NCBI RefSeq assembly: GCF_009903685.1
Contig: NZ_JAAABI010000001.1
Coordinates: 124,001-188,000, forward strand
Source: Flagellimonas ochracea
Lineage (GTDB): Bacteria > Bacteroidota > Bacteroidia > Flavobacteriales > Flavobacteriaceae
Length of the DNA stretch: 64,000 nt
Direction of reading: 5' to 3'
Under the pieces are notes generated by a model. That model saw only the letters and a list, made by a program, of their open reading frames with translations, did no database searches and was not told the DNA's origin. Shown one piece after another: positions 40,052 to 55,269 of the stretch. Position 1 is the stretch's first letter. Each line of letters begins with the position of its first letter. A program made the position numbers and the translations under genes.

Positions 40052-40118
40052 AGGTAACGGCTTCGGCTATGAGCATTAGCTTCCTGGAGGGCTGTATTGC
40101 TTATAGGTTTGGTAGTGC
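40052..40118 (-). repeat. attC-like site, short form
   Basis: The left arm AGGTAACGGCTTCGGCTATG pairs with the right arm TTATAGGTTTGGTAGTG. The left R box (GGTAAC) and L box (GGCTAT) are good; the right R' box is degraded (GGTAGTG instead of GTTRRRY). It separates the GT39 and ankyrin-like genes. Confidence 0.65.
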
Positions 40119-40172
40119 TGTCTTTTTATCAATATAATCTAACTATTTGTTGATCAGAATAATATAGGACGG

Positions 40173-41048
40173 TTATGAGACTTTGTCAGCAACTATTGTC
40201 AACCCAGGTTCTGAGACTGTCAATGATTTGATGGTTTCATTCTGCATCTGAAAAGTAATGATTACTGAAGGGGCACCATTATAGGTAAATTTATTATCTC
40301 CGATTTTATAAAGAGCTCCTCCAAATCCTCCTATTGGTCCTAAAGAAAGCAATTTCCTCATATTTATATCAATAGTAAAACCGTCTTGTTCGCCTTCACC
40401 ATACTTGTAATTTCCCAGATATTTTTTTTGTTCTTGTGAATTTACATCTAAGTATTGTTCGCCACCTGCATCTCCCAACGATTCCAAATATTCGATAGTT
40501 AACCGTAAATCATTGATCTCCTTTTCAGTCATTTTATCCTTCATTCTTTCTCCAGCATATGCATGGTCCAATAAGCTGATACCATGGGGCCCTGTGCTCC
40601 GTTGTATACCGGGTGTAGATTTAACAACAGACTTTATTACATGAAATGCACCCAGCATTGCAAAAGTAAAAATTGTGGGTCTAGCACCTTTGCTTATCAG
40701 GTACATAGCGATATCTCTTCTGCCTACATGAGATGCGGCACCTATGGCTGATTCGAAATCACCAAAACGCCATTCCCATACAGACCTTGAAAGCTCAGGC
40801 CTTTTTTCTACAATTTCTTTCACACGGTCCAAGTCAAAATGGGATTTACCCACGACCTCTGCTATTATCTCAGGATCAATATTTGGAAAGTGTTCAGGAA
40901 TATCTTCATCATTTGATGGCCTATTTGACCAAATTAGATCATTGTTGGCAAGTGCCAACCCAGGAAGGGACAGACCCATAAAAGTTAAAGAGTAGGCCTT
41001 TAAAGCCGTTCTTCTGTCTATCTGATTATTTGTTCTTTCCATTTCCAT
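40173..41048 (-). CDS. Ankyrin-like protein with twin-arginine signal
   Basis: A 291-residue protein whose N-terminus, NQIDRRTALKAYSLTFMGLS, holds two arginines followed by a hydrophobic stretch ending LPGLALANN, a likely Tat signal. Residues ~60-150 contain ankyrin-like units (AIGAASHVGRRDIAMYLISK). The C-terminal part (GGALYKIGDNKFTYNGAPSV) is beta-rich. tatC is present at 7827-8663. It is bounded by attC sites on both sides, so it is a one-gene cassette. The function is unknown. Confidence 0.75.
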   Translation of the reverse strand: MEMERTNNQIDRRTALKAYSLTFMGLSLPGLALANNDLIWSNRPSNDEDIPEHFPNIDPEIIAEVVGKSHFDLDRVKEIVEKRPELSRSVWEWRFGDFESAIGAASHVGRRDIAMYLISKGARPTIFTFAMLGAFHVIKSVVKSTPGIQRSTGPHGISLLDHAYAGERMKDKMTEKEINDLRLTIEYLESLGDAGGEQYLDVNSQEQKKYLGNYKYGEGEQDGFTIDINMRKLLSLGPIGGFGGALYKIGDNKFTYNGAPSVIITFQMQNETIKSLTVSEPGLTIVADKVS

Positions 41049-41059
41049 TATTTTTTAAA

Positions 41060-41144
41060 CGCCATTATGGTCTCGGCTATGAATAGTTGCGAGGATTTTC
41101 AGAACTAGGCGAGAATAAGCAATTACCCATGACCATTGTCGGCG
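41060..41144 (-). repeat. attC-like site
   Basis: The left arm CGCCATTATGGTCTCGGCTATG pairs with the right arm CATGACCATTGTCGGCG. The centre holds AATAGTTGCG and AGCAATTACC, which pair again. The R' box is GTCGGCG and the left R box is changed to CGCCATT, so the core is partly eroded. It lies between the truncated PhnB-like gene and the ankyrin-like gene. Confidence 0.75.
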
Positions 41145-41163
41145 GTTCGTTTTTTTTATTGTA

Positions 41164-41400
41164 AGTTCAATTGCCAAGAAATACCAAATTGGTCAATTAC
41201 CCAACCAAAATTTTGGCTGGAACATTGTTGTTTAAAGATATAGTAACATTATCGTTTTCAGAGAATTTTGAAAATAGTCTTTCAAGTTTATTTTCACATT
41301 CAATATAGTTCGAAATGGCAGGTGTAAAATCCCAATTGTGAACAGGAGGACTGTCGCTGCACATAAATAGGTTTCCGTTTAATTCAAATGTGGCTTGCAT
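41164..41400 (-). pseudogene. Truncated, frameshifted PhnB-like VOC protein
   Basis: The open frame MQATFELNGNLFMCSDSPPV to NNVPAKILVG matches only the middle of PhnB-like proteins. The first ~60 residues of the family are absent. After the 41210-41225 region the family ending continues in another frame (QNFGWVIDQFGISWQLNLQ, then stop, about 41164). So it is both 5'-truncated at the attC boundary and frameshifted. An intact relative is at 48393-48821. Confidence 0.8.
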
Positions 41401-41452
41401 AATTCTTCCTTCAATTATGGTTATTCATCTTCTTGTTGTCCTTTAAAATGAC

Positions 41453-41506
41453 CGTCAACGGTTCGGTATAGACGAACGTTTCAATGCTGCCTATACATTG
41501 TTGGCA
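41453..41506 (-). repeat. attC-like site, 54 bp compact form
   Basis: The left arm is CGTCAACGGTTCGGTATAG and the right arm is CTATACATTGTTGGCA. R boxes GTCAAC and GTTGGCA flank L boxes GGTATAG/CTATAC. This is the shortest and cleanest site: it has almost no central loop and looks like a classical 59-base element. It separates the PhnB pseudogene from the amidohydrolase cassette. Confidence 0.9.
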
Positions 41507-41524
41507 TCAGAATTAATGCATCCA

Positions 41525-42463
41525 TCATTTTTGGTGACTTGATATCACCTCGGGGGAAAGCTCCAAAAAGCGGGCGGCATTATTATAGAGTATGTCTCTT
41601 TTTTCGCTTTCTGTAAGGAATGGTGCTTCTTTAACTGTTTTAACCGCAATGGAAATGGCTCCCGGCCACATCATCTGATCAGATCCAAACATAATGCGCT
41701 TGCCAAAACCGGCATCCATAAGCTGCTTTAGGGTTGAATAAAAGGCTTCTATGGGCAATGCCCAAGTCAACACACCAATATCAGTGTATAGCTTGGGGTA
41801 GACATACATCATAGCAATTGTTTCCTGGATATAAGGATAACCGGCATGGGCTAAAAAAGCCTTTAGATTGGGATGTTTGACCAATACTGGTTCAAATAGG
41901 GTTGGTTTTCCAAGGGTTGTTCTGAATTTTGGTGCAAAGCTGTGTGGTCCTCCCGGAGGACCTAATCCTGTATGTAAACATACCGGTATGCCATTCTCTT
42001 CAGCTATTTTGTAATAGGGGGCCATGGTTGGAACATCAGGTGATAACCCAAAGTATTGGAGTCCCAGCTCGCCTAAAATGTCCACTTCCCCCTTTTCGAA
42101 GAGAATCTTTAGGGAATCTGGAGACAGGATCGGTCGACCAAGTTCATCGGTTTGAATTCCGGTCAAAATTAATTCAGGTGCGTTGGTTTTCCATTTTTTA
42201 AGTGCTTCTAAGCTTGTACTGCTGATTACACCAAGCTTTATGTTGTTTTTTTCCATTTCCTCGGTGACCATCTGGAGATGCCTTTCCGAATTCTGTGGTG
42301 AAGTGAGTTCCTGTGCATATGATTCACCAGCCCAAGAAGCTTGGACATTTGGAGGAATTGAGCTATATCCGTGCAAATGGATATCGATGATTGGCTTTTT
42401 TGCTCCCTGAGAATAAACAACCACAGAAATTGTTAGAAAAAGAATAGGTAGAAGTTTTCTCAT
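41525..42463 (-). CDS. Amidohydrolase-2 (TIM-barrel) family protein
   Basis: A 312-residue exported protein (signal peptide 1-18, YSQGA). Metal-binding candidates: PIIDIHLHGYSS (HxH), CLHTGLGPPGG, FLAHAGYPYIQE and MFGSDQMMWPGA with the catalytic Asp. This is the COG2159-type decarboxylase/hydrolase fold. The stop is 18 bp from the compact attC, and the ATG is 18 bp from the long attC at 42481. It is a one-gene cassette. The substrate is unknown. Confidence 0.84.
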   Translation of the reverse strand: MRKLLPILFLTISVVVYSQGAKKPIIDIHLHGYSSIPPNVQASWAGESYAQELTSPQNSERHLQMVTEEMEKNNIKLGVISSTSLEALKKWKTNAPELILTGIQTDELGRPILSPDSLKILFEKGEVDILGELGLQYFGLSPDVPTMAPYYKIAEENGIPVCLHTGLGPPGGPHSFAPKFRTTLGKPTLFEPVLVKHPNLKAFLAHAGYPYIQETIAMMYVYPKLYTDIGVLTWALPIEAFYSTLKQLMDAGFGKRIMFGSDQMMWPGAISIAVKTVKEAPFLTESEKRDILYNNAARFLELSPEVISSHQK

Positions 42464-42480
42464 GTTAATTCATTTTTTGA

Positions 42481-42672
42481 TGCTAACGGTTTAGCTATGA
42501 ACAGTACGGGAGTAACCTTGCGTTTGCTTTCCGTCACGCACATAGCGGATCTTTTGGTTTTCTTTTTTTTCACACTAAGAAGCAAAATCCAAAAGATTTT
42601 ACGGACTTCATAAAAATACGCAAACCTTTCATTTGAGCCCGAAGCCCGTATTGTTTATAGGTTGTGTTGTCA
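42481..42672 (-). repeat. attC-like site, long form (192 bp)
   Basis: The left arm TGCTAACGGTTTAGCTATGA pairs with the right arm TATTGTTTATAGGTTGTGTT then GTCA. A second stem ACAGTACGGG/CCCGTATTGT extends it. The middle ~120 bp is variable and contains the weak pair TCTTTTGGTTTT/AATCCAAAAGA. It belongs to the cassette carrying the gene at 42737-43150. Confidence 0.85.
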
Positions 42673-42736
42673 TTGGTTTTTCTTCCACGTTGCCAATTAG
42701 ATTTCTAGCTCCGTTCATTTTGAATCCAATTTTTAT

Positions 42737-43150
42737 TCAGTCAAACGCCATTAAGTCTGGTTCCAGAAATTCCATTTTTGCTCTTTCCGAATTATATATA
42801 TCAAATCCGTAATGGCAGGAAATCAAGTCTTTGAAATTCGTTTTCAAACGTGGGAATTCAGTAATAAAGTCCTTAAAATTATTCGACTTTGATTTTAACT
42901 TAAAATGATAAACTGCTTTAATCGCAGCTATTGTCAAAGTCATATTGTACTTGTCATTGGCTCCAACGGATTTTACGAATTTTTGCAGATGGACTGGTAT
43001 ATATTTTTCCGCTCCTTCAATTCCATACTGGTCAATACAGATCCACGCCAACCTTAGATGAGCCTCATGAGAAAAGTCCGATGGATTTAATTGGCAGTTT
43101 ATGAACCGTTTTTCAAATTCTTGGTCGGAAAGTTCGAAATGTTTTTCCAT
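42737..43150 (-). CDS. Conserved hypothetical cassette protein
   Basis: A 137-residue soluble protein I cannot name. It has a conserved-looking segment NPSDFSHEAHLRLAWICIDQ and later VGANDKYNMTLTIAAIKAVY. I recall small Bacteroidetes and proteobacterial proteins with the same F-x-H-x-A-H-L-R-L-A-W pattern but no assigned function. The His residues could bind a metal. It is a one-gene cassette between the long attC (42481-42672) and the type 2 site at 43180. Confidence 0.75.
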   Translation of the reverse strand: MEKHFELSDQEFEKRFINCQLNPSDFSHEAHLRLAWICIDQYGIEGAEKYIPVHLQKFVKSVGANDKYNMTLTIAAIKAVYHFKLKSKSNNFKDFITEFPRLKTNFKDLISCHYGFDIYNSERAKMEFLEPDLMAFD

Positions 43151-43179
43151 ATTTCGGTTTTTTCAAAATTAATGACGAC

Positions 43180-43234
43180 TGCCCCACGGCTTTAGTAGCC
43201 ATTAGGCGCTGATTCGCTATAGCCTTGGTTAGGC
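43180..43234 (-). repeat. attC-like site, type 2, deleted centre
   Basis: The left arm TGCCCCACGGCTTTAGTAG and the right arm TCGCTATAGCCTTGGTTAGG follow the same scheme as 45750-45841 and 48878-48970, but about 40 bp of the centre is missing. The right R' box is GTTAGGC. It ends the ORF-less cassette 43235-43389. Confidence 0.75.
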
Positions 43235-43389
43235 AAGGTACCGAGCCAGCGGTTGTGAGGGCCTGTTCTTGGGTATTAAATATAAGGTTATTCTTGGCGA
43301 ATCTGCAGTCGTACTGTGGGCCTTTAGGAAAAATAGTTAAAGGATGGAAGATCACGAAGTGATCTGGCTTGAACGACCAAAGGTATTTT
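43235..43389 (-). other. ORF-less cassette with terminator-like hairpin (copy 1)
   Basis: A stretch of 155 bp between two attC sites has no ORF but is ~85% identical by eye to 48971-49126. Shared landmarks are CCAGCGGTTGTGAGGGCCTG, TTCTTGGGTATTAAATATA, AATCTGCAGTCGTA and the hairpin at 43350-43364 (GATCACgaaGTGATC). On the cassette strand the hairpin is followed by a T-rich tract. Confidence 0.75.
43336..43378 (-). terminator. Hairpin of ORF-less cassette, copy 1
   Basis: On the minus strand GATCAC-TTC-GTGATC is flanked by a weaker outer stem and followed by ACTATTTTTCC. Three copies of this hairpin occur in the array, always with a T-run on the transcribed side, which is the layout of an intrinsic terminator. 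Confidence 0.5.
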
Positions 43390-43520
43390 TGCTAACGGTT
43401 GGTATAAGAGCAGTACGGATCAAATTGCTCGTATTTTAAATAGCAATGTACCCTAATTAAAAGTAATAACAGTTTGAATTTATGCCCAAACCGCTATTAC
43501 TATTATACCTTTTTGTGTTT
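43390..43520 (-). repeat. attC-like site
   Basis: The left arm TGCTAACGGTTGGTATAAG pairs with the right arm TTATACCTTTTTGTGTT. A second stem uses AGCAGTACGG and CCGCTATTACT. The R' box is weak (GTGTTTT). The stop of the DUF1330-like gene is 6 bp to the right, so this site ends a three-gene cassette. Confidence 0.8.
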
Positions 43521-43525
43521 TCGTT

Positions 43526-43933
43526 TTATTTAAACTCATCAGCAAATAATATATTTATTTCTGAAAAACCATTGTCACGATATGGTATGATTGACTTGTA
43601 TTCATCACTTTTAAAAAGATTTATTAGATTCTGTTTATTTGGGAAGTCCATTATAAGAAGAAACTCACCTGGACTTTTTCCAAAGAATACATCACTTATT
43701 TTATTTCTTTTTATAACCCTACCTTCGATAGACAATAGCATAGGCATCACTTTTTCAACATAGGTTTGAAGAGCAACCAGATCATCAGGATTTGCTTTTG
43801 ATGTGACTATCAATGTGGTTTTTTTATTTACATCCATGGTCTCCCTCTTTTGAGATATTGATTTGATTGATAATAGAATAAAGGATAGGCACACTAATAA
43901 ATGAATACTTGGATTATTACTGAGCTGTTTCAT
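43526..43933 (-). CDS. DUF1330-like exported protein
   Basis: A 135-residue protein with an N-terminal hydrophobic segment (IHLLVCLSFILLSIKSISQ). The mature part has the ferredoxin-like pattern of the DUF1330/monooxygenase dimeric-barrel group: VEKVMPMLLSIEGRVIKRNK, GEFLLIMDFPNKQNLINLF and YRDNGFSEINILF. It is the last gene of a three-gene cassette and overlaps the AhpD-like gene by 17 bp. The function is unknown. Confidence 0.72.
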   Translation of the reverse strand: MKQLSNNPSIHLLVCLSFILLSIKSISQKRETMDVNKKTTLIVTSKANPDDLVALQTYVEKVMPMLLSIEGRVIKRNKISDVFFGKSPGEFLLIMDFPNKQNLINLFKSDEYKSIIPYRDNGFSEINILFADEFK

Positions 43934-44384
43934 ATCCTTGAACTTTATGGTTTCCTGGAATGAATTTGAAGGTCTTCATAAGACGTGTCCAGGTATTGAT
44001 TTGTGCTATAGCCAAGGTTAGATAACATATTTCCTCTTTTGTAAAAAATGTTGTTAATGGGTAATATATATCTTCAGGAATGGACTCTCTTGATAATTTG
44101 GTGAGACTATCGGTAAAGCTTAATACGGCAATTTCCTTATCGGTGAAGTATGGTGTTTCTTGCCATACACATAGCGATGATAAACGCAGATCTGTTTCGT
44201 TTAGATGTTGTAATTCTTTGTGATGCATATCTACACAATAAGCACAGCCATTTTTTTGAGCCACTCTTAGTCTAATAAGTTCCAAAAGATGTATACCTAG
44301 CGTAGAGTTATTGATGAAATTTTCTGTTTCCATTAAACTTTCGAACATCCCTTCGGGAATGTCTTGATAGCTAATTCGTTCCAT
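43917..44384 (-). CDS. AhpD-like / carboxymuconolactone decarboxylase family protein
   Basis: A 155-residue helical protein with the redox motif NGCAYCVDMHHKELQH (CxxC plus histidines), near residues 50-65. The last third (YLTLAIAQINTWTRLMKTF) fits the AhpD-like fold with its INxWNR-type end. Cassettes often carry such genes. Here it lies 85 bp downstream of a Crp/Fnr regulator, a pairing common in Bacteroidetes genomes. Confidence 0.87.
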   Translation of the reverse strand: MERISYQDIPEGMFESLMETENFINNSTLGIHLLELIRLRVAQKNGCAYCVDMHHKELQHLNETDLRLSSLCVWQETPYFTDKEIAVLSFTDSLTKLSRESIPEDIYYPLTTFFTKEEICYLTLAIAQINTWTRLMKTFKFIPGNHKVQGYETAQ

Positions 44385-44469
44385 TATTTTATTGTTTGAA
44401 TTGTTAATTATGAAGCAAATTTATTAGCCTTCAAGCCGAATTTCATTAAGATATCTTAAGAACGAATTA

Positions 44470-45003
44470 CTAATGTGTTTTTCGTAGTTCACTTAGATAT
44501 TCAGGAGTAATATCTAGATAAGAGGCAATCATATATTGTGGAACTCTTTGAGTAAAGTTGGGAATGGATTTTATGAGTCCAAAGTAACGGTCTTTGCTAG
44601 AGGCTTTCATGTAAAAATGGCTATTTCTTTGCTGTGCAATCAACCAATTCTCAGTTATAATTCTAAAAAGCCTTTCAATCTTAGGCAATTTGTCATATGT
44701 TGAATCAAGAATATCCTTTCTGATAGATAAGGTAGTAGTTGGCTCTAAAGCTTGAATGTTAACAGAGGAGGGCTTTTGTTTTATGAAGCTATCCATATTT
44801 GTGACCCACCAATTTTCTATTCCGAATTGAACTATCTTTTCCGTTCCTGAATCATCAAAGTAGAAGGTTCGCACCAAGCATTCAATAATAAAGTAATGGT
44901 GGTTACATAATTGGCCTGATTGTAAGAGGTACTCTTTTTTCTTAAATGTATTCTCTTCTAATAATGAACAGAAATACTCAAACTCAGAATCTTCTAAAGA
45001 CAC
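44470..45003 (-). CDS. Crp/Fnr family transcriptional regulator
   Basis: A 177-residue regulator. A cyclic-nucleotide-binding-type domain (KKKEYLLQSGQLCNHHYFII, IVQFGIENWWVTNMDSFIKQ) covers the first ~125 residues, and a short HTH end (PQYMIASYLDITPEYLSELR) closes the protein. The start codon is GTG; a coding-like extension (LIESLKKYIDRY) precedes it in frame, but no ATG, so the N-terminus may have been trimmed when the cassette formed. It probably controls the AhpD-like gene downstream. Confidence 0.84.
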   Translation of the reverse strand: MSLEDSEFEYFCSLLEENTFKKKEYLLQSGQLCNHHYFIIECLVRTFYFDDSGTEKIVQFGIENWWVTNMDSFIKQKPSSVNIQALEPTTTLSIRKDILDSTYDKLPKIERLFRIITENWLIAQQRNSHFYMKASSKDRYFGLIKSIPNFTQRVPQYMIASYLDITPEYLSELRKTH

Positions 45004-45068
45004 ATACCGGTCAATATATTTTTTTAGACTTTCGATGAGTTAAGATTTTATAGTTTGCTTCGAATGAA

Positions 45069-45267
45069 AAACAACGATATTGTATATGATTTGTGGCGAC
45101 TGGCCGCTAGCGCCGGCGCACTGCTACAGCGGAGTGTAGTGTATGTGCCCTAGGGAAGCCCTGGAAAGCCGCTCAACGTTTTTATCAGTTAATCCAAGTT
45201 AGTCATTTTTGTGGGAATTCAAATTCACTTAACTAGCTACCGCCGTGAATTATATACGTTGTTGTGC
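45069..45267 (-). repeat. attC-like site, long form (199 bp)
   Basis: The left arm AACAACGATATTGTATATGA pairs with the right arm AATTATATACGTTGTTGTGC. A GC-rich centre (45100-45180) holds further stems, such as CTACAGCGGAGTGTAG. The stop codon of the VOC gene (45250) lies inside the right arm, so the gene ends ...QQRI within the site. Confidence 0.8.
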
Positions 45268-45720
45268 ACTGGCATTTGTCCAACATTGTAATTCAATGAG
45301 ATTTCCTTCAGGGTCCCTCGCATAAGTGAATGTGATTTCTCCAACGCCAATTATTTCCTTTTTCACGATTTCTCCAAAAGATGTTCCTCCATTAGATATT
45401 AATTTTTCAAGAGTACGTTCCACATTTTCAACTTCAAAGGCAATATGTCCAAAGCCTCGTCTATTTGGAGGTGTAAAATCTTGGGTTATGATTTCGCTAT
45501 ACTGATAGATTTCAAGTGTTGGTCCACTTTCTCCATATCCTGGCAACAACAAATGTGCTCCTTCAAGTGTCGCATTTTTAACTCCGGTTCCTTTCTCCAA
45601 CCATTTTCCAGTTTGATTTCGGATAGGGGGTACTATTTTGCAATTAAATGTTTCGACGTAAAAAGCAACAAGATTTTTCCAGTTAGTGCTTATTATGTTT
45701 GTATGAATAAATTTCATCAA
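45250..45720 (-). CDS. VOC family (glyoxalase-like) protein
   Basis: A 156-residue vicinal-oxygen-chelate protein. The first module starts MMKFIHTNIISTNWKNLVAF with the metal His, and the last contains FTYARDPEGNLIELQCW, with the conserved Asp-Pro-x-Gly-x2-Ile-Glu-Leu end and its Glu ligand. The middle RRGFGHIAFEVENVERTLEK supplies another His. The C-terminal residues NASAQQRI are encoded by the attC arm. The substrate is unknown. Confidence 0.87.
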   Translation of the reverse strand: MMKFIHTNIISTNWKNLVAFYVETFNCKIVPPIRNQTGKWLEKGTGVKNATLEGAHLLLPGYGESGPTLEIYQYSEIITQDFTPPNRRGFGHIAFEVENVERTLEKLISNGGTSFGEIVKKEIIGVGEITFTYARDPEGNLIELQCWTNASAQQRI

Positions 45721-45749
45721 AGACTATTTCTTTTAGGCTTGCGCACAAA

Positions 45750-45841
45750 GGCCTCACGGCTATGGCGAGTAGTGGTGCAAGCTCAGCTTGCAATAGCTAT
45801 GGAAGCCATTAGACGCTGATTCGCTATGGCCTTTGTTAGGC
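45750..45841 (-). repeat. attC-like site, type 2
   Basis: The left arm GGCCTCACGGCTATGGCGAG pairs with the right arm TCGCTATGGCCTTTGTTAGG (R' box GTTAGGC). The apex is a perfect 8-bp palindrome TGCAAGCTcAGCTTGCA at 45776-45792. The arms differ from the main type, but the R-spacer-L layout is the same. It separates the VOC and hydrolase cassettes. Confidence 0.85.
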
Positions 45842-45846
45842 AAAGT

Positions 45847-46782
45847 TTATTTAAGGTATTTCGATATCCATGTTGCGGCACTGGTCGTCCATTCATCAGG
45901 TAGTTTATGACCGCTATCAAACCATTTGATTTCCTTGTTTTTGCTTTTCAAGAGGTCGTAAAGTTTTTGGCCATCAGTTTTTGAATAGTTCCTATTATCA
46001 CTTTCCCCCATTAGCATAAGAAAAGATGATGTCTTAACAAATGGCGCAAAATTATAGACGGCAAGGGCTGAAAAGGGTTCCTTTAATACAGGAGTGACAC
46101 TTGCTACAGCAGTATTCAACCTAGAATCGACTGCACTAAGGTTGAATACCATCATACCTCCCATACTATAACCAATTGCCCCAAAACCTGTGGAATCTAT
46201 TTCTTCACGTGTTGCCAGATAATCCATGGCTCTGCGATATTCAATTACCGTTTGGACTATCATATCTCTTGCACGCATTACCCAACCTTTCTGAAAGATA
46301 AAAACATCGGCAGATTCATAATCATTGTTTAGCATTCGTTCACCATGATATTCAGCATCTAGGCTTAAAACTGCAAAACCAGAATCTATCAGCCGTTCCG
46401 TCAAGAGTCTCCCTGAATTAAAACTATTTTCTTTCCACCAGCTTTCTTTAGAATCGCCAACACCATGTAATACTAAAACACATTTGTAAGGACCATTCCC
46501 TTTTTTTGGAATGCCCAAATAACCGGGTACGCGACTATTGGCGATACCTTCAAAAACTATTTTTTCTCGAATATAATTTATGTCCTCATTTTTTTCAACG
46601 GTTCTAGCTCCTAATGGAATGCTCTTATCATAATCAAAGAAGTGATTCATAACCTTAAATGCCTCCGATTTAATCGGACTCATGATAATGGAATCACTCT
46701 CCTGAGAGGCCGTTAAACGAGGAAAGAAAAATAAGGCGATACAAAAAAATATTGTGATAGTATGGAATGCTTTAGACTTCAT
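45847..46782 (-). CDS. Exported alpha/beta hydrolase, dienelactone-hydrolase-like
   Basis: A 311-residue protein with a signal peptide (LTASQE) and an alpha/beta hydrolase fold. The nucleophile elbow is GAIGYSMGGMMVFN (GxSxGG). The oxyanion region is CVLVLHGVGDSKESWW, LMLMGESDNRNY holds the acid, and WFDSGHKLPDEW the catalytic His. This resembles acetyl xylan esterase/dienelactone hydrolases. It is a one-gene cassette between type 2 (45750) and type 1 (46804) attC sites. Confidence 0.86.
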   Translation of the reverse strand: MKSKAFHTITIFFCIALFFFPRLTASQESDSIIMSPIKSEAFKVMNHFFDYDKSIPLGARTVEKNEDINYIREKIVFEGIANSRVPGYLGIPKKGNGPYKCVLVLHGVGDSKESWWKENSFNSGRLLTERLIDSGFAVLSLDAEYHGERMLNNDYESADVFIFQKGWVMRARDMIVQTVIEYRRAMDYLATREEIDSTGFGAIGYSMGGMMVFNLSAVDSRLNTAVASVTPVLKEPFSALAVYNFAPFVKTSSFLMLMGESDNRNYSKTDGQKLYDLLKSKNKEIKWFDSGHKLPDEWTTSAATWISKYLK

Positions 46783-46803
46783 GATATTTTAATTTCTAAT
46801 TTT

Positions 46804-46934: not shown

Positions 46935-46945
46935 GTTCGGCTTTA

Positions 46946-48214: not shown

Positions 48215-48224
48215 CAGGTATTTT

Positions 48225-48341: not shown

Positions 48342-48392
48342 GTAGTTATTTTACTTCAATAGTTTGCGTTAAATATTATATACTCACATTAT

Positions 48393-48821: not shown

Positions 48822-48877
48822 TTTATTTATTCAATTTTCAATAATGGATATTTTCAGTTTTGTCTAATTACCGCCAA

Positions 48878-48970
48878 ATGCCCCACGGCTTTGGCGAGTA
48901 GCGTTGCAGTTTCAGCTTGCATTAGCTATGGAAGCCATTAGACGCTGATTCGCTATAGCCTTGGTTAGGT
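48878..48970 (-). repeat. attC-like site, type 2
   Basis: The left arm TGCCCCACGGCTTTGGCGAG and the right arm TCGCTATAGCCTTGGTTAGG. The centre contains GTTGCAGTTTCAGCTTGCAT, a degenerate form of the perfect apex palindrome at 45776-45792. It ends the second ORF-less cassette. Confidence 0.82.
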
Positions 48971-49126
48971 TAAGTACCGGACCAGCGGTTGTGAGGGCCT
49001 GTTCTTGGGTATTAAATATAGGGTTATTCTTGCCGAATCTGCAGTCGTAGTGTGGGGCCTTTAGGAAAAAAAGTTCAAGGAGGGAAGATCACGAAGTGAT
49101 TTGGCTTGAACGACCGCAGGTATTTT
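48971..49126 (-). other. ORF-less cassette with terminator-like hairpin (copy 3)
   Basis: A stretch of ~156 bp between attC 48878-48970 and 49127-49257, homologous to 43235-43389 along its whole length. It carries no ORF, a conserved CCAGCGGTTGTGAGGGCCTG block and the hairpin at 49087-49101 (GATCACgaaGTGATT). The conservation of a noncoding cassette in two places suggests mobility as a unit. Confidence 0.75.
49074..49116 (-). terminator. Hairpin of ORF-less cassette, copy 3
   Basis: Palindrome with one mismatch at 49087-49101 inside the outer stem TTCAAG/CTTGAA, followed on the minus strand by ACTTTTTTTCC. It matches the intrinsic-terminator layout on the array's transcribed strand. Confidence 0.5.
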
Positions 49127-49257
49127 GCCTAACGGTCTCGGCTATGGGTAGTTACGCGGGTTAGTACTAAACTTTGCAGGTACACACCAAGTTGGAAATT
49201 CCTGTGGAATTTCCAAAGTAGGCGAGAACAAGCAATTACTTATGGCCATTGTTAGCA
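49127..49257 (-). repeat. attC-like site
   Basis: The left arm GCCTAACGGTCTCGGCTATG pairs with the right arm TATGGCCATTGTTAGCA. The inner stem GTAGTTACGC/GCAATTACTT extends it. A perfect 11-bp palindrome (TTGGAAATTCC, tgt, GGAATTTCCAA) sits at 49192-49216 near the centre. Confidence 0.92.
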
Positions 49258-49264
49258 AAAGTGC

Positions 49265-49669
49265 TTATTCAATATCCTCGCTCTCAATTTGATATTTGTA
49301 TTTAAAAAATCTTTTTGATGGTTCACTTGCTATCCAATAGTCATCTATGTTATAAATATTTTTCCCAGTGTCATTTTCTTTGTACACTTTAAGAATCTGT
49401 TCCGCTTGATTTTTAATAACCACAGAGTCATAATCTACAAGTGAAGGTTCAAGAAAAGTGCTGCCAATATCAAAACCTTCCTGAAAGAGTTCAATTCCCT
49501 TAGGAAGTATTTGCAAGGTTTTGCTTAAACTTTCATCTGACGAGATAAATTGAATAGTCAGAGTTTGAGATGTCAAATTTTCAATATCTGCTTCCATATC
49601 CGATACGGGGTCACAACTTGAGAAAATTAGAGCCATCATTGTCAATACAAATAGATTTTTCATATTCAT
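49265..49669 (-). CDS. Hypothetical cassette lipoprotein
   Basis: A lipoprotein of ~134 residues from the ATG at 49669 (MNMKNLFVLTMMALIFSSCD; the lipobox Cys follows SS). The mature part has ADIENLTSQTLTIQFISSDE, beta-rich, with no known domain. The ORF could extend ten codons further, but that stretch is not signal-peptide-like. The stop is 8 bp from the attC at 49127-49257. One-gene cassette. Confidence 0.72.
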   Translation of the reverse strand: MNMKNLFVLTMMALIFSSCDPVSDMEADIENLTSQTLTIQFISSDESLSKTLQILPKGIELFQEGFDIGSTFLEPSLVDYDSVVIKNQAEQILKVYKENDTGKNIYNIDDYWIASEPSKRFFKYKYQIESEDIE

Positions 49670-49690
49670 TATTTTATGTGAGGCATTTTT

Positions 49691-49873
49691 TGCCATCGGT
49701 CCGGCTATGATTCCGTTGCGGCTGGCGGCTGGTGAGCGACGGCGCGGGCCGGTGCGATTTTCCAGCGAGCCAAGACGCGGGACGGAATCATTCCCGATTG
49801 TTTTGAGAGTTAAAATAAGAAAAGTTATTCCTTTTGACCAATCGGCAGCAATGGATCATAGCCTTTGTTGTGT
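49691..49873 (-). repeat. attC-like site, long GC-rich form (183 bp)
   Basis: The left arm TGCCATCGGTCCGGCTATGA pairs with the right arm GATCATAGCCTTTGTTGTGT. The inner stem TTCCGTTGCGG/GGCAGCAATGG continues it. A GC-rich centre (49726-49800) contains GACGGAATCATTCC. The stop codon of the next gene (49856-49858) is inside the right arm. Confidence 0.85.
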
Positions 49874-50311
49874 GTAGTGTTTTTGCTTTTTTAAATCAAT
49901 TTTTAAGTTTCTATAACCTAAATATTCTACTTCGATTTTTTTTAATTTGCCATGAAGTACATCAGATTGATAAATTCCATTTTCGTCTGTGCTTATTTTC
50001 TTTTTTTCAGTCGAACCGTTTTGTTTGATTGATAATATCAGTTTTGCGTTTGTTAGTGGTTCTTTTGTTTGGGCGTCGAAAACTTTTCCACGGACTGATT
50101 TTCCGTATTCCAATTGTGATATGTTCATTGAAATTTCCCCCATTACGATACATCCGTCCCGTCTATCAATTCCGTAATCTGGGTCTCTGTCCACGATCAG
50201 TTCGTTTGAGGGTCGATTTTCAATTATCAATTCCGAAAGTCCAGTCAGATTTTGAGTCCCTCGGCAACTGAAAATCAAAAGGATTAATATTAGTATTGTT
50301 TATCTTCGCAT
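49856..50311 (-). pseudogene. Carboxypeptidase-regulatory-like lipoprotein with in-frame stop
   Basis: The reading frame 49856-50278 encodes a 140-residue beta domain (YGKSVRGKVFDAQTKEPLTN, KKIEVEYLGYRNLKIDLKKQ) resembling the CarboxypepD_reg-like fold. Its signal peptide continues upstream in frame from an ATG at 50309-50311 as MRR-stop-TILILILLIFSC: codon 4 is TAA (50300-50302). So a nonsense change separates the true start from the lipobox. Translation from the TTG at 50278 would lose the signal. The C-terminal TQQRL is attC-encoded. Confidence 0.78.
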
Positions 50312-50329
50312 TGGCTTTTTCGACATTAC

Positions 50330-50460
50330 ACACAACGGTCTCGGCTATGAGTAGTTGCGTGGTTTAGCACTTTACTTTGCAAGTACGCACCAAACTGAAA
50401 ATCCGCAAGGATTTTCAGAAGTAGACGAGAACAAGCAATTACTTATAGCCATTGTTGTAG
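50330..50460 (-). repeat. attC-like site, best type 1 example
   Basis: The left arm ACACAACGGTCTCGGCTATG pairs with the right arm TATAGCCATTGTTGTAG. The inner stem AGTAGTTGC/GCAATTACT extends it. A perfect 10-bp palindrome (CTGAAAATCC, gcaa, GGATTTTCAG) is at 50395-50418. The TPR gene's stop (50439) lies in the right arm. Confidence 0.92.
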
Positions 50461-51512
50461 GTAGTTTTTTTACAATTATTTTTTAATAATTCAATTCCTC
50501 TTTTCTGTCCAAGTTCTGATAATTCATTCCAATCTTTACAAGCTAATTCAAATTTTCCAGTTTCATAGTAAATAGCAGCTCTGTTATAAAGCGCATCTAT
50601 GTTTTTTGGGTCTAACTCATAACTTTTAGTAAAGTTTTTAATAGAACTCTCATAATCTTTATTCTGATAAGACCTTATTCCTTTTTTGAAATATTCACTA
50701 GCTTTTTGAATTACTCTTGTGTCTCCACCATAAAAATGGTCTAATTGATAGAAAGAATCAGTGAAAAATTTCATTGAAATTCCACGAAATGTTTTTGTTT
50801 TTTCGTCTTTTAATACGAATGGCATTTCTAGGGTATCAAGATGTTTGAATTTATCTAAGTTCCAAAGTTTATACGATTTGTTAATCACTTTTTTAATTCT
50901 CTCAATTTTACTTGAGTCATTTGTGTTAGAGTAATTTATTAAGGTACTTATATTTTTATTTTTTAAATCTATTGTTATAACTCCTTTAGCTTTAAAGTTG
51001 CTGTGTTTTTTCTTAAAAGCTTTGTTCAGTTCAAGCATTAAACTCGAGTTTAAAGTTGGTGTATAGAATTCATTTGCAACTTGATTTTTACTTTCTCCCT
51101 TTTCCTCTTTAATTTCATTGAATAATTTTTGTTCTCTAACAAAATAGAACCTCTTTAATTTGTCGTTTTCCATTCCGTTTATTCTTTCACAGAGAATCAA
51201 CGTATCATTTTTTACTCTTTCTATTTCGTATCCGGAAGTTGAAGATGTTTTGATAAAGTTTTTATTTAATGAGAATGGAAAACAAACTTCATTTACTCTA
51301 TGAGTTGGATTTCCATTATTACACATTTCCAATTTTTTAAAAGTGTAATTAACATAAGAAGAGTCAGTCAAGAAACGGTCTATTAAACTACTGCCGTCTT
51401 TCATCTCAATCTTATATTTTATCCAATCTCCATTCAATTCAGAAATATTGACTTTTTGGCAATACGATTTGATTGTAATTAGAAGGAATAATAAAAGTAT
51501 GTTTTTCGTCAT
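50439..51512 (-). CDS. Exported TPR-containing protein
   Basis: A 357-residue protein with signal peptide MTKNILLLFLLITIKSYCQK. A central TonB-C-like or beta region (GVITIDLKNKNISTLINYSN) and two TPRs at ~270-335 (YFKKGIRSYQNKDYESSIKN, DALYNRAAIYYETGKFELAC) are visible. The last residues NNGYK are encoded by the attC right arm. The gene is AT-rich. It is the largest cassette gene near the recombinase. The function is unknown. Confidence 0.78.
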   Translation of the reverse strand: MTKNILLLFLLITIKSYCQKVNISELNGDWIKYKIEMKDGSSLIDRFLTDSSYVNYTFKKLEMCNNGNPTHRVNEVCFPFSLNKNFIKTSSTSGYEIERVKNDTLILCERINGMENDKLKRFYFVREQKLFNEIKEEKGESKNQVANEFYTPTLNSSLMLELNKAFKKKHSNFKAKGVITIDLKNKNISTLINYSNTNDSSKIERIKKVINKSYKLWNLDKFKHLDTLEMPFVLKDEKTKTFRGISMKFFTDSFYQLDHFYGGDTRVIQKASEYFKKGIRSYQNKDYESSIKNFTKSYELDPKNIDALYNRAAIYYETGKFELACKDWNELSELGQKRGIELLKNNCKKTTYNNGYK

Positions 51513-51523
51513 TTTTAAATTAC

Positions 51524-51657
51524 CTACAACGGTTCGTGTATGGCTTCGTTGCGGAAAACGTCCAACGGACTTTTCCGCTGTAGCCCGAATTTAGCGAATC
51601 AGGCTGGAATTTCTGTTTGGAAATTCCGACCGCAATGAGCTATACACAATGTTAGCA
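51524..51657 (-). repeat. attC-like site
   Basis: The left arm CTACAACGGTTCGTGTATGG pairs with the right arm AGCTATACACAATGTTAGCA. The inner stem TTCGTTGCGG/CCGCAATGAG extends it. A GGAATTTC/GAAATTCC palindrome is near the centre (51607-51628). Confidence 0.9.
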
Positions 51658-51664
51658 TACGTAT

Positions 51665-52125
51665 TTATTGTTTTCGTTCAAAGCGCTGTCCATTATCGAA
51701 AAGGAGAGACGTTTCGTTCAACACGCTAATTCCTATGAATTCTGACATGATATTTAGTCCAAATTTCTTATTTCGATATTCTACAACAGCTGGATAGTCG
51801 TAAGACTTGCCATTCATAGTATTTGTGCTATCTATATATTGAAAATCCATTCCGGTTATACTCAATTCATTAATGGGTTCATTTGAATTGATTTTTGCCC
51901 AATGCTCAATTTCAATTTGGTCAATTTCTGGCAATGAAAATTTATTGTGAGAAGTATTTTTGGAATTGACAAATTCCCATTTATCGGAGATTGATACCAA
52001 TATGGATTTTATTGAATCCATAACTTTTTCTTCCGATAATACTTGAGGATTTGCATTGTCCTTTTTTTGACTGCAAGAACAAAGAAAAACAAGTCCGATT
52101 ATCAGTACAATTTTTTTTTATCCAT
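51665..52125 (-). pseudogene. Cassette lipoprotein frameshifted at a poly-A tract
   Basis: The open frame 51665-52021 (118 codons, MDSIKSILVSISDKWEFVNS) lacks an export signal. Upstream, the same frame encodes IVLIIGLVFLCSCSQKKDNA, a clear lipobox, but the ATG at 52123-52125 (MDK...) is one base out of frame because of a nine-A tract (9 T on the + strand, 52111-52119). Ten A would join ATG and lipobox. The cause could be real decay, phase variation or an assembly error. Confidence 0.72.
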
Positions 52126-52130
52126 ATGTA

Positions 52131-52263
52131 TGCTAACGGTTTGTGTAAGGATAGTTGCGTGTGCGAGCAACTAACTTACTAAAAATGGAACGAGCCAGAG
52201 GAAAATCCGCAGGATTTTCCGAATAAGTAAGAACCAAGCAATTATTTTTACACGTTGTTACCA
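52131..52263 (-). repeat. attC-like site
   Basis: The left arm TGCTAACGGTTTGTGTAAGG pairs with the right arm TTTTACACGTTGTTACCA. The inner stem ATAGTTGC/GCAATTAT extends it. A perfect palindrome (GGAAAATCC, gca, GGATTTTCC) is at 52200-52220. Confidence 0.9.
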
Positions 52264-52271
52264 GCTGGTTT

Positions 52272-52971
52272 TTATTTAAATTTTCTGTAATATGTTTTTT
52301 CTTTTCCTAAAAAACCAATCTCTGGCTCAAAGGTCAATGGATATAATTTTCTCCCTTTAAGAACAAAAATCTTTGTCATCCAATCCAATATTGCAATGTC
52401 TCCAGTTTCTTCACTTTCCGATGCAAAAATCTCAATGTAATTTTTGTCAGTTTTTGGTCTGAAAATAGAGTCAGTTAATTTTAGAAGATTACTTTCAATC
52501 TCCATTTTTAAAATATCCTTAATTTCAATTTTTTCAACTTTAGTTCTTGGAACAGTTAGAACTCCGTTTTCGTTGGTTTTTATGAATTCTCCATTATTAA
52601 TAGACACATACCAATCCCACTTTTCTATGTCGGTTTTTCCTTTTTCAGCCAATCGTTGAAATTTTATCTCAATTTTCTATTGAATCAGAATTTTTGTATT
52701 CTTTCTCGATGATTTTAGGCTTTGCAGCATACAATACTTTGTCGGGATTTAGTTTTAGAGTATCTCCAATTTTTTTGTATGTTCCTTTTAGTGTTCCACT
52801 GCCTAAAATGTCTTGGTGATATTGATATTCAAAAGTTCCATTTTTATTGAATTTATACACAAAACAATTAGGTCCGAATTCACAAATGTTGTGCTTGAAC
52901 TTTCCATCAATTTGAGCAATTGAACTCAATGATATTAATAATGTCAATATTTGTAGTACGGTTTTTTTCAA
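52272..52971 (-). pseudogene. Exported hypothetical cassette protein, frameshifted
   Basis: Two adjoining frames probably make one gene. The 5' part (52669-52971) has a signal peptide (ILTLLISLSSIAQIDGKFKH) and a beta-rich domain. After NSDSIE the frame stops at 52669, and the other frame continues as KIEIKFQRLAEKGKTDIEKW to the stop at 52272. A single added A in an A4 tract near 52675 restores a continuous ~231-residue protein. The 3' frame has only a TTG start. The function is unknown. Confidence 0.7.
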
Positions 52972-52976
52972 CTTGC

Positions 52977-53109
52977 TGGTAACGGTCTCGTATAACCGTC
53001 AGTTACGGGTTAAAATGCGTTAATTTTCGGTTAAGCACAAACGTTAGCAATTCCGAGTGGATTCGGACGTAGTCGAATCCGCCGTAATTGCGGTTATACA
53101 TTGTTGGCA
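52977..53109 (-). repeat. attC-like site
   Basis: The left arm TGGTAACGGTCTCGTATAAC pairs with the right arm GCGGTTATACATTGTTGGCA. The inner stem CCGTCAGTTACGG/CCGTAATTGCGG extends it. The stop codon of the hydrolase gene (53044) lies in the middle, so ~20 C-terminal codons are attC-encoded. Confidence 0.9.
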
Positions 53110-53652
53110 AATCGTTTTTATTTTTTCAGTTTTCTCAACCTTAATTTCTCCATTAGTCGGTATCATATTCTGCCAAACCCAATTGTAATGTTCAATCACT
53201 TGTTCTGCTTTCAAATGTGGTCTTTCTCCGGTTGTATGTCCATCTTCAACAACAGTTATATTATAATCCTTTGTTAAAGCAGATTGAATTGTCGATTCTA
53301 CACAAAAATCAGTTGCACATCCAGTAATAAATAATTCGTTCACATTCAGTTCTTTCAGTTTGGAGTGAAGTTCAGATTTGTAAAATACATCATTTGCATA
53401 TTTGTCAATTCGAACATCATTAGATTCTACAATTAAATCGTCCAAATTTTCCCAATCCGTATTATTTTTTTCAAATTCTCCAGTTCCAGTTCCATCGTGC
53501 TGGATATAAACAACAGGATAATTTAATTCACGAAACATTTCGGCAAGTTCATTAATTCGCTTAATAACTCCAATTGTGTCAAATCGTGGTGTTTTTGGTA
53601 TGAAAGAACCTTTCTGCATATCAATTACTAATAAAGCTTTTCTCTTTTCCAT
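53044..53652 (-). CDS. Isochorismatase-like cysteine hydrolase
   Basis: A 202-residue hydrolase with the Asp-Lys-Cys triad: D in ALLVIDMQKGSF, K in VRIDKYANDVFY and C in ITGCATDFCVEST. These enzymes cut amide or ether bonds in nicotinamide- or isochorismate-like substrates. The family fold ends near NMIPTNGEIKVEK; the remaining residues (ITADSTTSESTRNC) are read from the attC, a scar of capture. It is the second cassette from the recombinase. The substrate is unknown. Confidence 0.87.
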   Translation of the reverse strand: MEKRKALLVIDMQKGSFIPKTPRFDTIGVIKRINELAEMFRELNYPVVYIQHDGTGTGEFEKNNTDWENLDDLIVESNDVRIDKYANDVFYKSELHSKLKELNVNELFITGCATDFCVESTIQSALTKDYNITVVEDGHTTGERPHLKAEQVIEHYNWVWQNMIPTNGEIKVEKTEKIKTICQQCITAITADSTTSESTRNC

Positions 53653-53678
53653 CAGTTTTTAGTGTTCTGTCAAATGTT

Positions 53679-53811
53679 TGCCAACGGTTTTGGCTATGGT
53701 TTCGTTACGGAATGGCACGCAGTGTTATTCCGACGTAAACCAAGCCTTTGATACAAGATAGGAATTTTCGGTAGAAAATTCCGCCGTAATGAACTATAGC
53801 CGTTGTTGGCA
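53679..53811 (-). repeat. attC-like site, first from the recombinase
   Basis: The left arm TGCCAACGGTTTTGGCTATG pairs with the right arm CTATAGCCGTTGTTGGCA. Both R boxes are perfect complements (TGCCAAC/GTTGGCA). The arms have unequal spacers (6 and 3 bases), which gives the extrahelical asymmetry typical of attC. A perfect palindrome (GGAATTTTC, ggta, GAAAATTCC) is at 53761-53782. Confidence 0.92.
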
Positions 53812-53818
53812 ATAGTTT

Positions 53819-54292
53819 TTATTCAATTTGGTAATACAATGTTTTTATCAGTTTTCCGTCAGCGTAAATTTCCGTATGAGTAATTCGGTCAGACGTTATT
53901 TTAATTTCCAGTATTACTTTTCTACTTAAAACAGCTTCTTTAACAATTTCGTGTTTCGGAACAATGACTGTCAATTTAGCTTGCTCTTCGTCTGAAAGAG
54001 CCAAATATTCCTCATTGGTTTCTGGTCCCTCAATATTATTCAATTCAGCGTAAGTTTCATTCGGATAATCAATCAGATGCAAACTATTCATTTCTCCACT
54101 ATGTCCTATCACGAGAGAAAACACTTTTTCATTAGTCAAATTCAGAGTGTCCATTTTAGGTTCAATTATGCGAAAATCAAATGCAGGATTTTCTTTAGAT
54201 TCCTCTGATTTATCTGTTGCATCAATGACAATATTCTGACTATAAATCGTCGAGAATAGGAATAGAAATAATATTGTCAGATTGAGCTTCAT
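53819..54292 (-). CDS. Exported hypothetical protein, first cassette
   Basis: A 157-residue protein with signal peptide MKLNLTILFLFLFSTIYSQN. The mature part starts IVIDATDKSEESKENPAFDF and is beta-rich, with no family I know. Its ATG is 7 bp from the core site at 54300-54306, so it has no room for a promoter of its own and must be expressed from the attI/recombinase side. By position it is the most recently captured gene. Confidence 0.72.
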   Translation of the reverse strand: MKLNLTILFLFLFSTIYSQNIVIDATDKSEESKENPAFDFRIIEPKMDTLNLTNEKVFSLVIGHSGEMNSLHLIDYPNETYAELNNIEGPETNEEYLALSDEEQAKLTVIVPKHEIVKEAVLSRKVILEIKITSDRITHTEIYADGKLIKTLYYQIE

Positions 54293-54299
54293 AAATTAT

Positions 54300-54306
54300 T
54301 GCCAAC
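54300..54306 (-). other. Apparent attI core site
   Basis: TGCCAAC on the + strand (GTTGGCA on the cassette strand) equals the R box of the first attC, but only one half is present. The sequence on the recombinase side (TCGTTTATAATCACAATTTA) is not the usual attC partner arm, as expected for a non-palindromic attI. The 114 bp from here to the recombinase start would also hold the Pc-like promoter for the cassettes; I see no clean TAnnTTTG element there. Confidence 0.7.
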
Positions 54307-54420
54307 TCGTTTATAATCACAATTTATCCATTTTTGACGATTAACCGGCCCTATTAAAAAGGTAAATCTTACTTTTTGCGAAAATATCTTAATTTTAAGT
54401 ATCCTAAATCTTGCGCCCAA

Positions 54421-55269
54421 ATGGATGGTAAATCACAGTTGATCAAGTTTCAAAAAATTATGGAACTTAAGGGGTATAGTCCCAATACCATTGCAGCCTA
54501 CATGTCTGCCCTTAAGCTCTTCCATTTAAAAACCGGTGTTACATATTGGAACAGTCTTAGCAACATTGAGATACATCGCGTGTGTTTCGATTTTTTCAGC
54601 CATAAAAAGATGTCCTACGCTGCTCAAAAACAAATGCTGGGAAGTCTTGTTCTTTTTTATCGGCTCATGTTCGACCGCGTACTACCCGTGGAAAATCTCC
54701 GACCCTCCCGAAAGTCCTTCAAAATTCCTGTGGTACTGGCCAAAAAGGAGGTAGAAGCTATGTTGGAACGTACCTCGAACCTGAAGCATAAGGCCATCTT
54801 GGCTACACTTTACGCATTGGGGCTACGCAGTGGAGAGCTTCTCAACCTTGCATTGAACCATCTGGACGGGGAACGAAAGACGGTATCCATATATGGCGCA
54901 AAAGGCAAAAAGGACCGACAGGTCATGTTCCCATTGGCGCTAAAGCAACTACTTAGAAAGTATTATATGGAATATAGGCCCAAAGTCTACCTTTTTGAGG
55001 GCCGAGATAACGGGCAATACACTGCTAGCAGTTTACTCAATGTGGTTAAAAGTGCAGCAAAAAGAGCACAAATCAAGAAAGTGGTGACCCCTCACACACT
55101 TCGGCATTCTTTTGCTACCCATCTATTGGAAAACGGAACGGATATTCGAATAATCCAAAAACTGTTGGGACATAAATCCATTAAAACCACTATGATCTAT
55201 ACGCACGTTAGCGTTTCAGAAATGGAACAGGTGCAAAGTCCAATAGAGCAGCTGCGGGTAACCCTTTAA
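54421..55269 (+). CDS. Xer/IntI-like tyrosine recombinase of the cassette array
   Basis: A 282-residue recombinase. The N-terminal SAM-like arm domain has MELKGYSPNTIAAYMSALKL. All catalytic residues are present: R in YALGLRSGELLNLA, K in YGAKGKKDRQVMF, HxxR in TPHTLRHSFATHLL, H in LLGHKSIKT and Y in TTMIYTHVSV. The IntI-like end VQSPIEQL is visible. Between the Lys motif and TPHTLRH there are only ~55 residues, so the IntI-specific patch domain appears absent. The ATG at 54421 is preferred over the TTG at 54376. It is convergent with purA. Confidence 0.9.
   Translation: MDGKSQLIKFQKIMELKGYSPNTIAAYMSALKLFHLKTGVTYWNSLSNIEIHRVCFDFFSHKKMSYAAQKQMLGSLVLFYRLMFDRVLPVENLRPSRKSFKIPVVLAKKEVEAMLERTSNLKHKAILATLYALGLRSGELLNLALNHLDGERKTVSIYGAKGKKDRQVMFPLALKQLLRKYYMEYRPKVYLFEGRDNGQYTASSLLNVVKSAAKRAQIKKVVTPHTLRHSFATHLLENGTDIRIIQKLLGHKSIKTTMIYTHVSVSEMEQVQSPIEQLRVTL

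Follow-up and report, generated by a model that had tools for sequence, protein, structure and literature searches.

Can a row of genes that are separated by inverted repeats and headed by a tyrosine recombinase be an integron, even though that recombinase lacks the I2 insertion typical of integron integrases (IntI)? We address this question for a locus of Flagellimonas ochracea, which lies in a stretch of 64,000 nucleotides (contig NZ_JAAABI010000001.1, positions 124,001 to 188,000) called the window hereafter; all coordinates without a prefix are positions in it. The genome of the window is labeled G000 and its contig C11, so that the window is C11, 124001–188000, and further G and L numbers denote compared genomes and loci. 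Between purA (55279–56547, minus strand) and a minus-strand open reading frame (ORF; 38548–40035), we find 19 predicted genes and 18 inverted-repeat sites. All 19 genes, which were hand-picked from the mechanically derived ORFs of the window, lie on the minus strand and are directed away from the tyrosine recombinase, encoded on the plus strand at 54421–55269; among the ATG-started ORFs of at least 90 amino acids in the array, 17 are on the minus strand and two on the plus strand. This agrees with a sequence-only reading of the same DNA, which had seen about 20 genes pointing away from such an enzyme and had proposed an integron-like array. On the evidence of sequence comparison, that proposal appears largely right, and the locus seems to represent a widespread integron variant without I2. 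We put the probability at roughly 0.85 that the window holds an integron-type cassette array whose I2-less recombinase captures and excises cassettes, joining a predicted bottom-strand attC hairpin with attI at an AAC/GTT core.

The sites form the basis of this argument. All 18 that had been claimed can be placed within 40052–53811, albeit with uneven quality: a covariance model (R1) recovers 13 of them at E ≤ 0.01, and S1, S5, S7, S8, and S11 were placed by eye only. R1 was built from nine window sites, and those nine are among the 13 recovered. Because an integron cassette closes into a circle, the R'' box of its attC is expected to pair with the beginning of that cassette rather than with the opposite end of the site as integrated. 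When the 18 sites are scored accordingly (the end test), the R'' boxes reach 124/216 with their own cassette starts, the average over shuffles being 70.8 (sd 8.2), and none of 100,000 shuffles attains 124; with the other end of the same site, they reach 64/216 (p 0.81). In three sites (S5, S8, and S11; class B), the left box is displaced outward by about 8 nt, and this alters the boxes of S4, S7, and S10. With this shift taken into account, 14 of the 18 boxes match their own cassette start at 7/11 or better, where scores of 7/11 are weak because free-register controls average 4.7–6.2 and have maxima of 6–9.

The same pattern is found elsewhere. In 320 adjacent pairs from other loci (a count that excludes the window), the box matches the cassette start at 7.60/10, compared with 3.73 for the same site and 3.85 for sites drawn at random from that array (Mann-Whitney p 1.5e-148, uncorrected for relatedness), and 21 of the 22 listed arrays with at least three pairs, the window included, favor the cassette-start match. 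Outside AAC/GTT, the model pairs a single base, the first, and does so within a site; the result of the end test is therefore not created by it. A box has its partner at the opposite end of its cassette, not in the second box of its site. The attC layout described in the sequence-only reading stands as far as cores and sites are concerned, but its pairing of boxes within a single site has to be given up. Plain palindromes or terminators were considered and rejected, as the complementarity between the two ends of a site does not exceed that of random ends, either in the window or in the 320 pairs. Rfam offered no family fitting the array stretch (only two sub-threshold matches to unrelated families), and a simple scan for AAC..GTT stems separated arrays poorly from shuffled sequence.

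Predicted folds add a strand polarity to this picture. In 331 rebuilt sites, the complementarity outside GTT spans 11 nt and then ends sharply: positions 1–6 form Watson-Crick pairs in 87–91%, position 7 in 57%, and positions 9–11 in 68–75%, a T.G pair stands at position 8 in 74%, and positions 12–14 are paired in just 11–15%. G.T makes up the first pair within the core in 97% of the sites and the second in 65%, and on the top strand these inner pairs turn into A.C mismatches. In 316 of 330 sites (one site above the length limit was omitted), the bottom-strand fold is the more stable by prediction, with a mean of -28.3 versus -24.2 kcal/mol, and it remains preferred when the two largest arrays are left out (152 versus 12); random cassette-body segments lean the opposite way, with the bottom strand favored in 79 of 329. 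Hence the repeats do not behave as plain intergenic palindromes, the case that the sequence-only reading had held against itself: it is the cassette ends, not the site ends, that are complementary, and predicted folding favors the bottom strand. In canonical attC sites, extrahelical bases on the R''-L'' arm set the strand choice, and a G just after AAC is present in most of them (PMC2727003). Conserved extrahelical bases on that arm are absent from the 327 predicted folds counted (four of the 331 are missing): a single one occurs in 61, of which 22 at the commonest place, the other arm carries a single-base bulge in 108, and a one-sided 3-nt bulge lies on that other arm, beside the core, in 161. 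In the folds as modeled, polarity is apparently carried by the G.T pairs.

The presumed counterpart of these sites, attI, occupies 54304–54420, directly beside the recombinase. Its core AAC (54304–54306) and the motif TCGTTTATA to the right of it, which is common to the window, to G152 of the same genus, and to a Roseivirga metagenome-assembled genome (L093), were recognized by comparing flanks and from the end of first-cassette identity with G101 at 54306. Five genomes of the same genus (G169, G179, G196, G200, and G201) have identical sequence right of the AAC upstream of the recombinase and five different sequences left of it. Likewise, from AAC (L227 position 12814) onward, a plasmid of F. 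marinaquae and one of Arenibacter algicola share 13,908 bp at 99.993% identity, and their cassette sides gave no megablast match; in the 18 kb compared, contig 2 of G200 is the same as plasmid NZ_CP092416.1 of F. marinaquae. A 753-bp cassette (X) that spans core to core is found as a single copy next to attI in G169 and as a tandem pair in G201, and blocks of 99–100% identity are combined differently in these same-genus genomes. On a mobilizable Flagellimonas plasmid, we also observed a reversed erm(F) within the cassette beside attI; the erm(F) cassette, 96–97% identical, adjoins a long-form recombinase in Paenimyroides viscosum as well (loci L227:11520–12816 and L140:10916–12001).

Cassette 1 of the window carries a hypothetical gene of 157 amino acids (53819–54292, minus strand). 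It is 98.3% identical to DNA in an array of G101, a member of another genus, with 54306, the C of AAC, as the last identical base, and this near-identity across genera makes its arrival look recent. The 490-bp body of the cassette is present in two of 299 genomes, namely, the window's own and G101. Two other genera (G113 and G145) have in common an 802-bp stretch, 93.4% identical, both ends of which lie at most 3 nt from a core. In 100 matched pairs, ends lie at most 3 nt from a core in 14 (start side) and 6 (attC side), where 0.27% is expected; these are 100 of 141 pairs, those above 3,000 bp or without annotated sites having been dropped, and some genomes give several loci. In G152, purA and the recombinase (69% identical) are syntenic, and no window cassette was matched in the 40 kb fetched. 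The order of cassettes in relatives, on which the sequence-only reading had made its integron model depend, is accordingly not kept: neither G152 nor the five same-genus genomes, which differ beyond their identical attI flank, preserve it. Two marks of an integron, an attI beside the integrase and cassette gain or loss between relatives at the core, are thereby seen in sequence comparisons.

What kind of enzyme stands beside this array? The recombinase (282 amino acids; Phage_int_SAM_4 and Phage_integrase according to Pfam) has an intact frame and retains, in the alignment with IntI and in one of 40 rows, R, K, HxxR, H, and Y, which we take to be its catalytic residues. An I2 insertion is present in all 14 IntI with which it was aligned and in neither the window recombinase nor its 38 aligned relatives; the PDB alignment with IntI4 (2a3v) has a gap at I2 in the window protein, whose TIGR02249 score of 195 bits is under the cut-off of 265. 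In a quick tree, the 14 IntI rows make up a clade of their own (support 100), from which the window recombinase is excluded, and 39 of the 46 I2-less rows, the window included, form a separate group (support 85). The three other full-length Xer-like proteins of the genome, 29–35% identical to the window recombinase, are not part of the group that unites the IntI rows with the I2-less ones (support 99). The enzyme thus has neither the I2 domain nor the IntI-clade placement of an integron integrase, nor does it group with the host XerC/XerD as a Xer chromosome-dimer resolvase would. The sequence-only reading had designated it a Xer-type recombinase; by sequence and tree, it is nearer to IntI than to the genome's Xer-like proteins, though without I2. 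Among 28 phage records with a match, the integrases of the eight listed are 33–36% identical. As a separate observation, a canonical IntI and an I2-less recombinase are adjacent on one 4.6-kb contig of a Planctomycetota metagenome-assembled genome (L162).

Both the sites and the recombinase are common in the family Flavobacteriaceae, of which one genome per genus (149 genera) was scanned. R1 sites (E ≤ 1e-4) occur in 130 of the 149 genomes, with 1 to at least 22 sites per genome, and recombinase relatives (E ≤ 1e-40) in 99; both are present in 96 genomes, only the recombinase in 3, only sites in 34, and neither in 16 (Fisher odds ratio 15, p 1.7e-6). At the level of the phylum, 66 of 247 genomes have R1 sites and 70 have a canonical IntI above the family cut-off, none of these IntI matches lying within Flavobacteriaceae. 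No R1 site at E ≤ 0.1 was found in 15 stretches around canonical IntI (4–20 kb, several cut by contig ends) or in L162, L168, and L170–L172, and four whole genomes outside the phylum (those of L162, L168, L170, and L171) gave no R1 match at E ≤ 0.001. A Rhodothermia genome gave two weak matches. Within genus g128, 11 genomes are without an R1 site at E ≤ 1e-4 and three have one, unlike most of the family.

Two locus layouts can be distinguished. In 21 of the 22 loci with a short recombinase, the array lies upstream and is divergent, as in the window, and in 44 of the 46 with a long one, it lies downstream and is codirectional; some genomes give several loci here, and one of the long rows (L076) is a different recombinase with 29% identity. 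A first, mostly upstream, sampling of relatives had revealed sites beside four short recombinases, plus one weak match in L049, and the notion that sites occur only beside short recombinases was rejected once the family scan found arrays downstream of long ones. Together, the 80 named loci nearest to the recombinase hold 139 site matches, a few of them duplicated across strands, and many of these loci end at contig ends. The long form has about 100 extra N-terminal residues without a Pfam domain in the five that were scanned, and this extension is a candidate replacement for I2. A W-S-x-T-like motif recurs in this N-terminal part (e.g., L107:9662–10828 and L130:9689–10828).

Other loci carry sites of the same type. 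The window genome itself has a second array (G000:C11:855997–881787; L082 and L083) with about 18 sites and consistently oriented genes, which has no such recombinase in the 40 kb fetched and scores 6.43/10 in the end test (14 pairs), versus 4.29 for same-site and 3.49 for random ends. Scattered sites are found on C4, C22, C44, C51, C52, and elsewhere on C11. In G113 (L064–L067), there are 95 sites in 80 kb, about half of which belong to a low-scoring subtype spaced about 450 bp apart that looks like one small cassette multiplied.

How might such a system work? The complementary cassette ends would be brought together in the circular cassette, and the bottom strand of the resulting attC is predicted to fold into a hairpin. 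This folded strand would recombine with attI at the AAC/GTT core, the window recombinase being the presumed enzyme. Only one attC strand would react, the predicted G.T pairs carrying the polarity by turning into A.C mismatches on the top strand, and a second strand exchange would be avoided. The cassettes near attI would then be the newest.

Compared with the sedentary chromosomal integrons of the Vibrio type, the similarities are considerable: attI lies beside the recombinase, the cassettes are arranged in tandem on the same strand, the core is AAC/GTT, the attC box is complementary to the start of its own cassette, the bottom-strand hairpin is favored (here by prediction), and a G is conserved just after AAC. 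On the other hand, the window recombinase lacks I2 and falls outside the IntI clade. The complementarity outside GTT spans 11 nt here, compared with about 4 nt in canonical attC, and the predicted folds have few R''-L'' extrahelical bases, with the 3-nt bulge on the other arm and the G.T pairs instead. The canonical IntI integrons of the same phylum differ in that their IntI has I2 and that none of their 15 loci has R1 sites. From the Xer recombinases (archaeal Xer 4a8e, XerA 5hxy, and XerH 5jjv), the window enzyme is set apart by the separate grouping of the host's Xer-like proteins and by its position next to a cassette array. The inverted integrons of Treponema resemble the long-form relatives, with codirectional arrays downstream of the recombinase, but the Treponema enzyme (L170) has I2, and the window shows the usual divergent layout.

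Several observations weigh against an integron run by the neighboring enzyme. Loss of I2 is reported to abolish the function of IntI1 (PMC7790495), and single-strand attC use by the window enzyme would therefore be surprising. The identity of cassette 1 with G101 ends inside attC and not at the far core; the cassette was therefore not moved whole, or its attC was later replaced. Beside this stands a hybrid attC, observed when L073:11687–11860 is compared with window 53683–53807, where the cassette gene and the R''-L'' half are the same and the attC interior differs. Most of the 100 match pairs end away from cores, many of them because they lie in flanking genes. In the end test, S9 and S1 fail, S12 and S6 are weak (6/11 in fixed register), and the array of G169 (L184, three pairs) has no end match (5.00 versus 5.33 for the same site); moreover, the p-values assume an independence that related sites do not have. 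As a positive control of the end test, canonical attC sites were sought de novo in the 15 IntI loci, with no output. Finally, sites without the recombinase at E ≤ 1e-40 occur in the 34 family genomes counted above, and among the arrays outside the family, G251 and G314 have an I2-less relative in the fetched stretch and G243 and G364 do not; in such recombinase-less arrays, another enzyme could act, or they could be relics.

These points are best judged against the other explanations they invite. Cassettes might be moved by a different enzyme (the long-form recombinase of relatives, XerC/D, or a canonical IntI in trans), with the neighboring gene as a bystander, which would suit the 34 genomes just mentioned as well as the other Xer-like genes of the window genome and its second array without such a gene nearby. 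Yet attI directly adjoins the window recombinase and is conserved with it, the four nearest relatives with more than contig-end flank all carry arrays on the same side, and canonical IntI neither keeps company with such sites in its 15 loci nor gave a match within the family in the phylum scan, which makes this explanation an unlikely one. We consider it equally unlikely that the array is a dead relic in which cassettes moved formerly and whose recombinase is now inactive or used otherwise: the five sites missed by the model and the failure of S1 and S9 speak for decay, but the frame and catalytic residues are intact and the cassette next to attI, being nearly identical to one in another genus, looks recent. 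That the sites are dispersed intergenic repeats, with gene turnover through homologous recombination between them, is very improbable. Sites do occur singly elsewhere in the genome and the G101 identity does break inside attC, but homologous recombination gives no private 11-nt box common to the two ends of each cassette, and joints at one AAC beside the recombinase in different genomes are not accounted for, so that this idea is already contradicted. The integron reading remains the best explanation, supported as it is by cassette-end complementarity, by the comparison of attI flanks, and by the predicted folding of the bottom strand.

We go one step further, with less assurance, and consider it probable that the window belongs to a second integron lineage, one that is almost ubiquitous in Flavobacteriaceae and also occurs in other Bacteroidota and on mobilizable plasmids. 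This lineage would capture cassettes via single-stranded attC hairpins without I2, its strand choice being written as bottom-strand G.T pairs instead of extrahelical bases read by I2, and it would represent either a pre-I2 ancestor of IntI or a separate origin of single-strand cassette recombination. In integron surveys, the I2 domain is what defines IntI (PMC9668308; PMC2426708), and one account describes I2 as necessary for cassette capture, as occurring in no other protein, and as the step that gave integrases single-strand recombination (PMC7790495). An I2-less cassette system with a bottom-strand signature makes this I2-based history of integrases directly testable. Bacteroidota are listed among the phyla with integrons (PMC8618304; PMC9668308), with Salinibacter ruber given as the one complete integron of Bacteroidetes proper in the account of IntegronFinder 2.0 (PMC9024848). 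For one Tenacibaculum genome, IntegronFinder gave no integron (PMC10013915); a different member of that genus (L105) carries 10 of our sites. Among the titles and abstract openings listed by searches of open-licence literature, preprints excluded, none reports I2-less integrons or arrays in Flavobacteriaceae. With this arrangement recurring in many further Flavobacteriaceae and on plasmids, it seems that an extensive system of gene exchange has gone unnoticed, and present tools probably miss a large Bacteroidota cassette pool.

The array products are small enzymes and proteins of unknown role. In the description that follows, genes are on the minus strand, named families come from Pfam, hypothetical genes come from the ORFs and a Pfam scan, and sites were found by the covariance model and passed the end test unless stated otherwise. 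Going away from attI, cassette 1 is closed by S18 (53679–53811) and followed by cassette 2 with an isochorismatase family gene (53044–53652) and S17 (52977–53109). Cassette 3 (52272–52971) holds two hypothetical genes (52669–52971 and 52272–52652) and precedes S16 (52131–52263), and the hypothetical gene of cassette 4 (51665–52021) precedes S15 (51524–51657). Cassette 5 encodes a TPR protein (50439–51512; S14 at 50330–50460), cassette 6 a CarboxypepD_reg-like protein (49856–50278; the long S13 at 49691–49873), and cassette 7 a hypothetical one (49265–49696; S12 at 49127–49257, with its weak box match of 6/11).

Next comes a gene-less cassette (48964–49133), bordered by the class B site S11 (48880–48970; placed by eye, end test passed). 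Then follow a VOC/3-dmu-9_3-mt family gene (48393–48821) with S10 (48225–48341; end test with shift 8), a pair of genes (46946–48123) for OmdA/YdeI (47557–48123) and DJ-1/PfpI (46946–47545) with S9 (46804–46934; box without a match to its own cassette start), and a dienelactone hydrolase-like gene (45847–46782) with the class B site S8 (45751–45841; by eye, end test passed). The glyoxalase/VOC family gene (45250–45720) is followed by the long S7 (45069–45267), placed by eye, whose box reaches 7/11 with shift 8, a value equal to its own control maximum. Three genes (43526–45003) encode a cNMP-binding regulator (44470–45003), a carboxymuconolactone decarboxylase (CMD; 43917–44384), and a DUF1330 protein (43526–43933); S6 (43390–43518; box 6/11) lies beyond them.

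The far end of the array is less regular. A further gene-less cassette (43228–43396) ends at the short class B site S5 (43181–43234; by eye, box 7/11). The hypothetical gene at 42737–43150, with 73.6% identical DNA in an array locus of G091, is followed by the long S4 (42481–42672; end test with shift 8), and an amidohydrolase gene (41525–42463) by the short S3 (41453–41506). A small ORF of 67 amino acids (41197–41400, from the ORF list), perhaps a remnant, stands outside the count of 19 genes and precedes S2 (41062–41144; degenerate core, box 7/11). The last cassette gene, a hypothetical one (40173–41048), is followed by S1 (40052–40114), a degenerate array end that was placed by eye and whose box has no match.

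The two gene-less cassettes are copies of each other, with 153 of 169 aligned bases identical. Part of them is an 88-nt repeat with a small hairpin, which adjoins the cores of S6, S10, and S12 (43329–43416, 48164–48251, and 49066–49153) and whose copy at S10 is apparently truncated.

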